NCBI GenBank assembly: GCA_030605835.1 | Contig: JAUWHO010000037.1 | Span: 1-56,718, forward strand | DNA length: 56,718 nucleotides | Direction of reading: 5' to 3' | Source: Candidatus Zixiibacteriota bacterium | GTDB lineage: Bacteria > Zixibacteria > MSB-5A5 > DG-27 | Part shown: positions 26,815 to 35,888 of the stretch, piece by piece | How the letters are laid out: each line of letters begins with the position of its first letter | Position numbering within the stretch: the first letter of the stretch is position 1 | The notes under the pieces: model-generated | Seen by the model: the letters and a program-made list of their open reading frames with translations, nothing else | Database searches by the model: none | Told to the model about the DNA's origin: nothing | Program-made: the position numbers and the translations under genes

Positions 26815-28617
26815 TCAATAGACCAGTGACGGAGCGACTTCTTCGACTGCAGCTTCTCTCAAGGGTAGCCTGATGATGAAAGCAGTGAAGCTGTCGGCTC
26901 TGCTTTTCACTTCGATGGTGCCTCCGTGGAGGAGTACAACCTTTTTCACCAGGGGCAGTCCCAAACCTGTCCCTTCCTGCCTGGTGCTGAAGAAAGGATA
27001 AAATATCTTCTCCCTCATCTCTTCTGGTATTCCTACTCCGTTGTCCAGACAAACGATTTTGACAACCTTCTGTTGATTTCCAACGAGGTATGCAAGGAGT
27101 CCAACGGTGCCTCCAGTCTTGACTGCCTGACAAGCATTCAGAAGGAGGTTTTGCAGGGCTTGGCGCAGGAGCAGTCCATCCCCCTCAAAGAGTGGCAATT
27201 TCGCGCTGATCCCAACCTTCAGGGTAATCTCTTTTTCCTGGATAAGGTCATTCACCCTGACAGCGGATTCGCTGGCGAGCTCGCGCAAATCAACAGCAGT
27301 CAGTTTCAAATCCTCTTGGCGTGCGAAATCAAGAAAATGTGACAGCATCCGTTCCACGGCCGCGGACTCCCGGATTATGTCGCTGATTATTACCGGAAGC
27401 TTCTCCGGGGCGCGCAAGTTTCGCTCCAGGAGTTTACTGTAACCTGTGATGGTGGCCATGCCATTGCGCAATTCGTGAGCCAGACCGGCGGACATCTCCC
27501 CCAAAGCCGCCAACTGCTGTTTGAAGAGCATCTCCTTCTCCAACTTCTTGATTTTGGAGATGTCTATCAGTAAAATGAAGACACCAACTGCGCCTCCCTT
27601 TTCATCCCTTATCAGAAAAGAGGTTAGGCCCACTTGGATTAGCTCTCCGGTCCCCTTTCTAACCTCCAGTTCCAAGCGCGAATGCGTTCTTTCTTCATTC
27701 AAGGCCTCATTGATGATTGTTGTGAGCGGGTTCTCAGATCCGAAAGTCTCCCGGAAGCCGTGGTCCAGCACTGAACTCCGCTGGTAACCCAGAATCTTCT
27801 CGGCAGCGGGGTTAAAGCGAGTGATTAGACCCGAACCGCTACAAGTAATGACCCCGGAGGAAATGCTCCCCAGTATGTATTCGTTGTAGCGGGCGAGTCC
27901 GTCGGCCCTCCTTTCGGAATCATAATAAAGCTCCTGCAAGGTCTTCTCCTTCTCCTTGAGCTCTGAGATGGTCTTGGAGAAAGTCTCTATGACGGCTTCG
28001 ACCTCGTCAGACTTGGCTACAGGGGAAATCTTGTCCCCATTCAATCTCTGCGAGTCTTTCAGCATTCTACGAAACGGGGACATTATCATTCGCAAGAAGA
28101 TGAATCCCAGAAGGAGTAGAACAACTGTGCCTCCCAGCCGGATGGAAGTGTCCAAGAGAGAAAGAGAATTTAGAGTGGCGACGGCCTTGGCGTCAGCTCT
28201 TACGACTATGGCCCCGGCGAAATCTCCCTTTTGGTCGTAGGCGGGACGCATGTAGACTAACTCTCTATCCTCTTCTCTGTTCTCTAGCACCTCTTCTCCC
28301 CTTTCAATTCTTCTCCAGCTCTCATCCCCCACACCTTTCGAATCCGGCGATTCCCAGAATCTAATCTCCTGCATCCGGGTGATGATCCTCAAACGCCACA
28401 GCCGCTCTGCCATTTCAACGGGGTCTTTCTCTTGGCGGACAATTTCAGCGGTCAAATCTCCGGCGACGGCCAGATCTCGATGCAGTTTGCCTTCGAGCGC
28501 CATCCTGGCTTTGCTGAAGGTCAAGGAGGTCACGAAATTCAGTGCCACTATCAGAAGCAGCATTAATAACAGAACCAGACGCACTTCTCTGGTGAAAGTC
28601 AGTCTCATTTTGCCCAT
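26815..28617 (-). CDS. membrane sensor histidine kinase with PAS domain (NtrB-like)
   Basis: A 600-residue kinase: membrane segment about 13-31, an extracytoplasmic region about 32-158, a second segment about 159-179, a HAMP-like linker, a PAS domain (about 244-356, SGLITRFNPAAEKILGY), HisKA with AHELRNGMATITG (phospho-acceptor His381), and HATPase_c with LLLNACQAV, DNGVGIPEEMREKIFYPFFST and GTGLGLPLVKKVV. This is the layout of NtrB-like kinases that often signal to sigma-54 activators. No response regulator lies nearby, so the partner is unknown. The short gap to the heptad tract has no clear terminator. Confidence 0.92.
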   Translation of the reverse strand: MGKMRLTFTREVRLVLLLMLLLIVALNFVTSLTFSKARMALEGKLHRDLAVAGDLTAEIVRQEKDPVEMAERLWRLRIITRMQEIRFWESPDSKGVGDESWRRIERGEEVLENREEDRELVYMRPAYDQKGDFAGAIVVRADAKAVATLNSLSLLDTSIRLGGTVVLLLLGFIFLRMIMSPFRRMLKDSQRLNGDKISPVAKSDEVEAVIETFSKTISELKEKEKTLQELYYDSERRADGLARYNEYILGSISSGVITCSGSGLITRFNPAAEKILGYQRSSVLDHGFRETFGSENPLTTIINEALNEERTHSRLELEVRKGTGELIQVGLTSFLIRDEKGGAVGVFILLIDISKIKKLEKEMLFKQQLAALGEMSAGLAHELRNGMATITGYSKLLERNLRAPEKLPVIISDIIRESAAVERMLSHFLDFARQEDLKLTAVDLRELASESAVRVNDLIQEKEITLKVGISAKLPLFEGDGLLLRQALQNLLLNACQAVKTGGTVGLLAYLVGNQQKVVKIVCLDNGVGIPEEMREKIFYPFFSTRQEGTGLGLPLVKKVVLLHGGTIEVKSRADSFTAFIIRLPLREAAVEEVAPSLVY

Positions 28618-28753: not shown

Positions 28754-28820
28754 GGCCACGGATAGCCGATGCGTGGCCAACAGCCAACTACTGTTGGTAT
28801 CGGACGCCCCGTCCGATACC
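28754..28820. repeat. structured intergenic repeat, copy 1
   Basis: Three pairings: GGCCACG (28754-28760) with CGTGGCC (28772-28778); CCAACA (28777-28782) with TGTTGG (28792-28797); and an 11-bp perfect stem GGTATCGGACG (28796-28806) with CGTCCGATACC (28810-28820), loop CCC. A related element lies at 28917-28984. The whole 28618-29035 gap has no supportable gene. Confidence 0.75.
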
Positions 28821-28916
28821 CTGATAGATCAAAAACGTGCCCTCGGGAATTACTTCCCCGCGGTTTTCTCTGAATTGCTGTAAGATGTAAGCACCTGACC
28901 ACATAGAACTTGGAAA

Positions 28917-28984
28917 GGTCACGGATGAGCGCATCCATGACCAACATCTCACTTCTGTTGGCATCGCACGCCCCGTCCGATACC
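28917..28984. repeat. structured intergenic repeat, copy 2
   Basis: It has the same layout as the element at 28754. GGTCACGGATG (28917-28927) pairs with CATCCATGACC (28932-28942, one mismatch). CCAACA (28941-28946) pairs with TGTTGG (28956-28961). GGCATCGCACG (28960-28970) pairs, with two mismatches, with CGTCCGATACC (28974-28984). The first stem differs in sequence from copy 1 but still pairs. Confidence 0.75.
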
Positions 28985-29035: not shown

Positions 29036-31276
29036 TTACTTCAAGTGCTCCTGAAAATACTCTGATATCTTCGTGAATAGGTGAACGTAGCTTTCGTCCC
29101 GCGAGAAACCGTGCTCCTCTCGGGGATATATCATCACGTCAAATTCCTTGTTGTTCTTGACAAGCTTGAATATCAACTGCACCGTGTCCTGGAAATGAAC
29201 ATTGGAGTCCGCCATCCCGTGAATCAAAAGCAGCTTCCCTTTCAATCCCTCCGCGAAGTGGATCGGTGAGCTTCTCTTGTAAGCAACAGAATCCTCCTGG
29301 GGGAAATTGAAGCGCTCCGTAGTATACCAGAGATTGTAGTTCTCCCAGTCATTGACCGCCGCCACACTGCAACCGACTTTGAAAACGTCCGGTCTTTTGA
29401 ACATCGCCATGTTGGTCAGAAAACCGCCGTAGCTCCAACCCCAGATGCCAACTCTACTGGTATTGATATAACCGAGACCGTTTAGATATTGAACCGCGCT
29501 GACGGCATCCTCCAGATCTAGATTCCCCAGATGGCGATAAACATCGGTCCTGAACTTCCGGCCGTAGCCAGAAGAGCCTCTGTAGTCGACCGTAACGACA
29601 ATAAAGCCCTCTTGTGCTAGCACCTGATGAAAGAGGCCACTGCGCGACCAGTAATTGCACACCGCTTGTGCGTATCCGGCCCCGTGAATGTGAACAATCA
29701 GCGGGTATCTCTTTGCAGGGTCGAAATCCTCAGGCTTCCAGACAAGGGCGTGAACAGTTTCGCTATCTACATCAGAACTGAAAGTGAAAAACCCTGGCCT
29801 GGAGAGTTCATACTCTGAAAACTCCGGCAACGCTGAGTTTGTAATCCTTTTGATTTTGCCCCTCTTTCTCAAGTCAACTAGATAGTAATCCCAGGGGGTG
29901 ACATTGTCAGTGTAGTAAAGCACCGCCTTTTTCCCATCTGGAGAGGCAAGGTTCTGCCCATGTCTTTGAGGTGGAGAGAACCATCCCCCCTCGAAAGTCA
30001 AACGCTCTTTTTTGCCGGTTCTGGGATCCAGCCGGAAGAGATGCCGCTCTGGGATGGCAACTTCGGTGGAGAAGAAATAGATCCACCGACCCTCTGAGCA
30101 AACATCGAGACTTCTCACCTCCCAGTCCCCGGAGGTCAACTGCTCTGGCTCGCCTCCGGTCACAGAGACTCTATGAATGTGATTGTAGCCGCTTCTGTCA
30201 GACGAAAAGATTACTGTCTCCCCGTTCTCAGCCCAGAAGCAGCCACCTGAGATAGTCGAGACCCAGGCAGTATCGGATTCGTGGAAGACTTCCTCCACCT
30301 TGCCACTACCACAATCGGCAACCAGTATCCAGCGCTCTTTCTGCGCCTTTGACACTTTCTCCAGAAGTAGTTTATCACCCGGAGGCGACCATTTTAAGGT
30401 ACGAATGTAATATTCTGTCTCCCCTCCCATATCGAGCCACAGAGTCTCTCGGTTCTCCAAGCTAATGATGGCGATCTTGCTGTCGGCCAGTTCCCCGCCC
30501 GCGATCGATCTTTTCTGCTCGGTAGTTTTTACCTTTTTGCCGACGTAATCGGGAATTAGGATGGGGTCGATCTCAGAGAGGTCGTATCGCATGAAGGCAA
30601 CCCTTCTGCTGTCCGGAGACCAACGGTAACACGACACCTCATCAAGCCAGCTCAGGTAATAACCAGCGCCGTTGACCACGGTATCACTTCCGGTGGTGGT
30701 CAATTGCTCAACTCGATGCTTTTCAAGGTCGAGATACCAGATATCTCCCCCTCGGATAAAAGAAAGGTATTTCCCATCCGGGGAGTATTGAGGGTTTTTC
30801 TCCCCGGCCTCAGTGTGCAAGATCCGAACGACCCCCCTGTTCTCAACGTCCACCGTAAAAAGGTCGCCCAAGTAGATGAAGGTAATCTCTTTGCCATCCG
30901 GGGACCACCTGAGGGAGCCGACGCCACCTCTCAGCTTCTCGGCTTCTTCTCTCTCCTCCCGGTTTCGCTCATCGTCCTCTTTTGGATCTTCTTTGATTCT
31001 GGCCATATCTGTCAGACAGGAGAGCCTGTCCTTTTTTAGATCGTACAGCCACACATCCCGGAATCTTTCGCCCTCCTCATTCCAGGAAAAGGCGATCTTA
31101 TCAGAGTTGGGTGACCAGATTGCCTCCCGGGGGGAGGTCCCGTAAAAGAAGGGATGGGTGTATATAGCCTCGATGCTCAAAGGTTTGCCACCGAGAGAGC
31201 TCGACAGGAGCAAAAGAGCTAATGTCAATGTTAACACAGCTATCTTGCTCAAGCAAAGGGGGTTTGAACGATTCAT
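29036..31276 (-). CDS. S9 family serine peptidase (dipeptidyl-peptidase IV-like), exported
   Basis: A 746-residue prolyl-oligopeptidase family enzyme with a signal peptide (NPLCLSKIAVLTLTLALLLL), an eight-bladed beta-propeller with DPP4-type repeats (for example FLRWSPDGKEITF-like WSPDG motifs) and a C-terminal alpha/beta hydrolase. The catalytic triad is readable: Ser615 in GWSYGG, Asp690 in GMADSN, and His722 in REEHGF. A likely periplasmic or cell-surface dipeptidase for nutrient peptides. The ATG at 31276 has GGAGG in place. There are 305 bp from here to the first lipoprotein gene, covered by the duplicated unit. Confidence 0.94.
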   Translation of the reverse strand: MNRSNPLCLSKIAVLTLTLALLLLSSSLGGKPLSIEAIYTHPFFYGTSPREAIWSPNSDKIAFSWNEEGERFRDVWLYDLKKDRLSCLTDMARIKEDPKEDDERNREEREEAEKLRGGVGSLRWSPDGKEITFIYLGDLFTVDVENRGVVRILHTEAGEKNPQYSPDGKYLSFIRGGDIWYLDLEKHRVEQLTTTGSDTVVNGAGYYLSWLDEVSCYRWSPDSRRVAFMRYDLSEIDPILIPDYVGKKVKTTEQKRSIAGGELADSKIAIISLENRETLWLDMGGETEYYIRTLKWSPPGDKLLLEKVSKAQKERWILVADCGSGKVEEVFHESDTAWVSTISGGCFWAENGETVIFSSDRSGYNHIHRVSVTGGEPEQLTSGDWEVRSLDVCSEGRWIYFFSTEVAIPERHLFRLDPRTGKKERLTFEGGWFSPPQRHGQNLASPDGKKAVLYYTDNVTPWDYYLVDLRKRGKIKRITNSALPEFSEYELSRPGFFTFSSDVDSETVHALVWKPEDFDPAKRYPLIVHIHGAGYAQAVCNYWSRSGLFHQVLAQEGFIVVTVDYRGSSGYGRKFRTDVYRHLGNLDLEDAVSAVQYLNGLGYINTSRVGIWGWSYGGFLTNMAMFKRPDVFKVGCSVAAVNDWENYNLWYTTERFNFPQEDSVAYKRSSPIHFAEGLKGKLLLIHGMADSNVHFQDTVQLIFKLVKNNKEFDVMIYPREEHGFSRDESYVHLFTKISEYFQEHLK

Positions 31277-35844: not shown

Positions 35845-35888
35845 ATGCAAACAAAATGACCGAGTTCCGGAGGGGGAACTCAGTCATT
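35845..35888 (-). terminator. rho-independent terminator after the FecR-domain gene
   Basis: On the minus strand, a 14-bp stem (35888-35875 with 35868-35855, one mismatch) with loop CCCTCC is followed by TTTTGTTTGC. It lies 50 bp after the stop at 35939 and separates that gene from selD-selA. Confidence 0.8.

Follow-up and report, generated by a model that had tools for sequence, protein, structure and literature searches.

REP elements and their RAYT partners

REPINs, BIMEs, and REPtrons with a RAYT (TnpAREP) gene are known systems (PMC2817692; PMC3116915; PMC6006769). Inverted REPs on either side of RAYT genes are likewise on record in the parts of the literature available, as are BIMEs, head-to-head heterodimers, and the co-divergence of RAYT and REP (PMC2817692; PMC3733652; PMC6006769). 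GTAG guides cleavage, which occurs at CT (PMC8266576). In TnpAREP subclass 2.6, from Bacteroidetes, the RAYT is flanked instead by non-GTAG 'atypical secondary structures' (PMC6006769), and CGTC-tagged REPs are without a dedicated transposase (PMC3733652). A literature search for Zixibacteria together with palindromic repeats returned no relevant match, and the accessible portion of PMC6006769 does not name Zixibacteria.

The locus described here lies in a window of 56,718 nucleotides, positions 1 to 56,718 of contig JAUWHO010000037.1 of a Candidatus Zixiibacteriota bacterium (assembly GCA_030605835.1). We read its two hairpin clusters as permuted members of a dispersed, non-autonomous, REPIN/BIME-like family mobilized by a cognate RAYT, and put the probability of this reading at roughly 0.85.

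The two copies in the window

Two related multi-hairpin clusters are present in the window sequence at 28754-28820 (copy 1) and 28917-28984 (copy 2), as placed by a first-pass annotation of 28754-28984 (Table 1). In pairwise alignment they are 81% identical over a 57-nt stretch, in the same register and at a spacing of 164. The core of the last hairpin occurs at two places in the window against 0.00 expected by chance from the shuffled window. The interval holding both copies separates an S9 peptidase gene from a histidine kinase gene, both on the minus strand, which is also the direction in which the family reads A first and the one used for the window hairpins. Both copies are in the permuted order B-AACAG..CTGTT-A. 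The stretch between them has A of copy 2 on one side and B of copy 1 on the other when the minus strand is read, so that it is readable as an enlarged A-B linker; it may consist of the linker, canonically CTTTTG, plus an insert with another imperfect palindrome.

Table 1. Coordinates of the hairpins, neighboring genes and associated RAYT gene (window positions unless a locus is named)
Feature	Position	Strand	Basis
Hairpin A of copy 1, GGCCACGGATAGCCGATGCGTGGCC, degenerate	28754-28778	-	sequence comparison, predicted fold
Spacer of copy 1, AACAGCCAACTACTGTT; outer element edges AACAG / CTGTT face to face	28779-28795	-	sequence, flank reading
Hairpin B of copy 1, GGTATCGGACG-CCC-CGTCCGATACC, all 11 bp of the stem paired	28796-28820	-	alignment, fold, shuffles
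Inter-copy stretch, 96 nt	28821-28916	no strand	sequence, flank reading
Hairpin A of copy 2, GGTCACGGATG-AGCG-CATCCATGACC, one mispair (G-T on minus strand)	28917-28942	-	sequence, fold
Spacer of copy 2, AACATCTCACTTCTGTT, outer edges facing	28943-28959	-	sequence
Hairpin B of copy 2, GGCATCGCACG-CCC-CGTCCGATACC, two mispairs	28960-28984	-	sequence, shuffles
Putative S9-type peptidase gene, upstream of the element, not part of it	29036-31276	-	first-pass annotation from sequence
Putative sensor histidine kinase gene, on the downstream side	26815-28617	-	reading of translation
RAYT gene on contig C40, 180 aa from ATG	L065 2888-3469	-	

Some details of the structure differ from those first proposed. 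The last stem had been given as ATCGGACG-CCC-CGTCCGAT. Copy 1 has this stem in perfect form but copy 2 does not; it reads ATCGCACG, with a C-C mismatch and, on the plus strand, a C-A (G-T on the minus strand). Compensatory divergence, claimed from the first stem, is borne out across 30 sequences from 12 genomes (see below); the window copies by themselves have only one truly compensated first-stem pair, at the third position (C-G to T-A); the other first-stem mispairs are a G-G mismatch in copy 1 and a C-A (G-T on the minus strand) in copy 2. The idea that overlapping arms make the stems mutually exclusive did not survive folding: the predicted fold of copy 1 pairs the spacer AACAG/CTGTT alongside both hairpins. 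A switch built on exclusive stems was rejected because the family consensus folds with all stems nested. Elsewhere in the window, an isolated long hairpin, AATGACCGAGTTCC-GGAGGG-GGAACTCAGTCATT, is found at 35855-35888.

A dispersed family of inverted hairpin pairs

The copy number of the family rests on BLAST and covariance-model searches of the same genome (2.68 Mb in 53 contigs). Copy 1 has 48 BLAST matches there, a consensus-unit query has 71, some of them one place matched on both strands, and the covariance model has 39, from which we estimate about 45-50 units, below the more than 100 usual for REPs. Placement is largely extragenic: 31 of 37 copies are outside ORFs of at least 100 aa, where such ORFs cover 80% of the loci, and the copies outside ORFs are distributed over 13 convergent, 14 tandem and 4 divergent gene settings. 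The exact element pattern has no match in viral contigs. A genome search with such a model had been suggested in the first-pass annotation, as had a REP/MITE-like family, and dozens of dispersed extragenic inverted hairpin pairs, with copies on both sides of a RAYT gene, bear out the latter.

Reading of the flanks of the BLAST matches gives a canonical unit, CTGTT-(A: GGTCACGGATG-CCCT-CATCCGTGACC)-CTTTTG-(B: GGTATCGGACG-(N)GGG-CGTCCGATACC)-AACAG, in which the loop is CCCT in hairpin A and AGGG in hairpin B. Hairpin A matches B, read in reverse complement, in its length of 11 bp, its GGT...ACC ends and its CCC(T) loop, and where their stems differ the changes are compensated; the two are paralogous hairpins placed head-to-head. 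Their orientation is fixed, A+ then B- in all full units, with loop CCCT facing AGGG, and B- then A+ when permuted. The permuted order, or reverse junction, found in the window recurs in copies on contigs C40 and C10. When the canonical unit is folded as DNA, one three-way structure results in which every stem is nested (z -9.4).

The unit is surrounded by weaker, imperfect extended inverted ends, CCTCA.../...TGAGG. An element that is short, dispersed and extragenic and has such ends could be a MITE of a cut-and-paste (DDE) transposon with CCTCA...CTGTT/AACAG...TGAGG as its terminal inverted repeats. However, no obvious target-site duplication was seen by eye beside CTGTT...AACAG, internal hairpins with conserved loops are unexpected in a MITE, and the gene between copies encodes a Y1 RAYT, not a DDE transposase. 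A MITE is very improbable on this evidence.

Covariation across the class

A covariance model built from 13 copies of the genome was searched in 133 genomes of the class. It has matches in 12 of them, namely the source genome and its genus, members of families f16 and f8 (2-27 copies each), and three weak cases. The stem sequences vary widely across families; the loops CCCT/AGGG and the edges GTT/AAC are constant. In a MAFFT alignment of 30 sequences from the 12 genomes, not fitted to structure, double changes are present in 22 of 26 base pairs (14.0 when shuffled), 94.1% of cells pair (76.2% shuffled), and the covariation score reaches 0.537, compared with 0.191 after shuffling and no more than 0.123 after sliding. 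The outcome named in the first-pass annotation as refuting it, a lack of further copies and of covariation, is thus not what the searches show. The exact hairpin B pattern, searched in genome contigs, matched a single relative, CP070839.1. Matches of the pattern in Actinomadura and Clostridia were dismissed as chance; they are isolated palindromes with longer arms of their own, one of them terminator-like.

Mispairs across the genomes are 13 G-T and 13 A-C, and among the copies of the source genome 16 and 9, respectively. This balance between the strands favors structure that acts as DNA rather than as one RNA strand. The first-pass annotation had raised the possibility of a structured RNA in the untranslated region after the S9 peptidase gene. 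Such an RNA, in the 3' UTR of the peptidase transcript or between the cistrons, could serve as mRNA stabilizer, attenuator or regulatory RNA. Both strands of the window copies do fold strongly (z -2.7 to -5.3), and family members are mainly in convergent and tandem intergenic regions, where transcription is expected. Against this, apart from the symmetry of mispairs, no Rfam covariance model matches the element, either at the gathering threshold or with E relaxed to 1, the interval lacks terminator-like and promoter-like sites, and other copies have unrelated neighbors and lie in both orientations relative to genes.

The same locus in a congener, G001, is informative in this regard. Its peptidase flank is 90% identical and its kinase flank 81%, and the interval, which in G001 contains a 730-aa gene and a different palindrome, holds no copy of the element. 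The element is thus not a conserved part of the peptidase mRNA, and with the other evidence this makes an RNA function there very improbable. The G001 interval does not provide a clean empty site, since other DNA is inserted there. Two copies in G001 were considered as a source of empty sites and rejected, being orthologous to copies of the source genome.

The two sites shared by the genomes show compensated stem changes. The compensation may reflect either selection or replication errors that correct palindromes. On a rival reading, the covariation stems from template switching that perfects quasi-palindromes, acting on repeats without an active mobilizer. The symmetry of pairing on both strands and the paucity of mispairs agree with such a process, and compensated changes at orthologous sites are equally expected from it. 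It leaves unexplained, however, the dispersal of the repeats, the constancy of loops and edges across families, and the bracketing of RAYT genes by copies, and as a full account we consider it quite improbable.

At both shared sites an extra palindrome of the 18-nt type is found in hairpin A or B of one species only. This third palindrome, CCATACGGCTCGTATGAG, follows GGTnnCGG at a constant position within the outer arm, whether of A or of B, and keeps one orientation; its presence differs between the two genomes at the two sites. As a 17-mer it occurs at 15 places in the source genome (e.g., C14:28871, C15:67836 and C31:158276), about 11 of the 15 inside elements, and it was also noted at loci L002, L004, L008 and L047. 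Another palindrome, GGGGCATTCCTGCCCC, is found just upstream of about nine copies at a near-constant distance, for example in the left flanks of L007, L018, L045, L055, L057 and L064; this suggests that the element may be part of a larger mosaic.

RAYT genes and the hairpins beside them

The source genome has four Y1_Tnp ORFs. The one on contig C40 is bracketed by the element: a B-A copy lies about 10 nt upstream of the ATG, and a degenerate and a near-consensus A-B copy lie past the stop, which answers the earlier suggestion to look for a REP-associated transposase. The protein scores 118.8 bits against NCBIfam REP_Tyr_transpos (NF047646; cut-off 80) and matches TnpArep (PDB 4er8) at 5e-5. 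Its HUH and Tyr motifs are conserved in motif alignment (DHLH, WM, YIHNNP).

The closest homologue of the C40 RAYT in the class, from a different family, is that of G131 (CP070839.1), with 48% identity. G131 agrees with that record, 'Candidatus Zixiibacteriota bacterium isolate bin1014', at 100% over 2001 nt, which puts the class of the source genome within Zixibacteria. The G131 RAYT gene also has element matches at both ends, so that bracketing is seen in two genomes, and the element has the same architecture, including one hairpin B (L129) identical in stem and loop. In stem sequence, however, the hairpins beside the G131 RAYT are wholly different from those of the source genome. A scan with the model, covering 30 RAYT loci in eight other genomes that carry the element, recovered the G131 locus and no further convincing bracketing; G017 has a weak pair of matches, one at each end. 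At some 60 further RAYT loci in the class, bracketing by hairpins of this element is not convincing. RAYT and element co-occur among genomes significantly but loosely (Fisher p 0.0004 to 0.002, the related genomes not being independent). Because most other element-bearing genomes have no RAYT with this hairpin type, their partner may have been lost, be unassembled or be a different one.

At 30 RAYT loci of the class, the density of strong hairpins is 6.1 per kb up to 150 nt from the gene ends but 0.1-1.4 per kb at greater distances, and 15 of the 30 loci have them at both ends. This enrichment indicates that a RAYT of the class commonly has its own hairpin family on both sides; the one belonging to the C40 lineage is the window element. 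Two other RAYTs of the source genome have different hairpins. That at L066 (G000:C31:41500-47000) has GTCAGGTTGTCCCAACCTGAC-type hairpins at 2276-2296 and 2860-2884, the left one preceded by GTAG as in canonical REPs. That at L067 (G000:C2:12000-17000) has (C)CGTCAGG...CCTGACGG hairpins at 2072-2097 and 2666-2689, a type that flanks many RAYTs of the class (L103, L108, L111, L112, L119 and L124). The latter resemble CGTC-tagged REPs, yet here they bracket RAYT genes.

Comparison with described systems

As far as the available parts of the literature go, the element resembles REPINs, BIMEs and REPtrons in being a short, dispersed, extragenic palindrome occurring as inverted doublets, clusters and permuted arrays, with stems that differ between families while pairing is kept. 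It is REPtron-like also in that copies bracket a RAYT gene and that RAYT and REP diverge together. It departs from REPINs and BIMEs, as described in those parts: it has no GTAG/GTGG foot, its conserved GTT/AAC edges pair together into the three-way fold, and its two hairpins are of separate sequence with a constant CCCT/AGGG loop. Full units have (C)TGTT, or a sequence close to it, as their 5' foot and a CAAAAG-like foot on the other strand, and for want of GTAG the element is filed as a variant, not as a canonical REP. Nor is it a CGTC-tagged REP; its CGTC is confined to the B stem instead of being unpaired at one end, and a RAYT is associated.

Subclass 2.6 (group 5 of Bertels) is similar in having atypical hairpins that lack GTAG and recur in the host genome (PMC6006769), in a Tyr motif, YIH[QN]NP, that YIHNNP fits, and in a size of about 180 aa. 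The C40 RAYT differs in having DHLH in place of NH[LIV]H and WM in place of WQ, so that one of the three motifs compared matches. The GTAG heterodimer REPs share head-to-head dimers of unlike hairpins with the element, and TIRtrons resemble it in the double palindromic terminal repeats on either side of their RAYT-like genes (both PMC3733652), but the element's foot has no GTAG, CGTC or GGGGWSAS tag. Judged against the portions of these papers available, the kind of system is known, and the border motif and the little-studied phylum set this variant apart from published ones.

A model for mobilization

By analogy with these systems, the element would work like a REPIN. The C40 RAYT, an HUH, single-tyrosine enzyme (Y1_Tnp/NF047646), would recognize the hairpins in single-stranded DNA by their loop and foot; it would cut and rejoin at the element edges, perhaps within C-TGTT. 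Such cutting and rejoining could spread A-B units and yield tandem or circularly permuted B-A forms, the latter presumably by way of tandem or circular intermediates. A more speculative, and rather unlikely, extension is that a Zixibacteria RAYT lineage reads two unlike hairpins as one three-way-junction unit by means of CCCT/AGGG loop and GTT/AAC edge signals, with no GTAG guide, and that CCATACGGCTCGTATGAG is a hairpin-targeting mobile module that inserts at the same outer-arm position.

Implications

One caution from these results is that an intergenic repeat may covary strongly without being a functional RNA. They also place REP/RAYT systems in the sampled Zixibacteria class, where RAYTs are present in most genomes, many bracketed by their own hairpin family. 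Here stems diverge completely and loops and edges stay fixed, a natural series for testing what a RAYT reads in a REP that has no GTAG guide.
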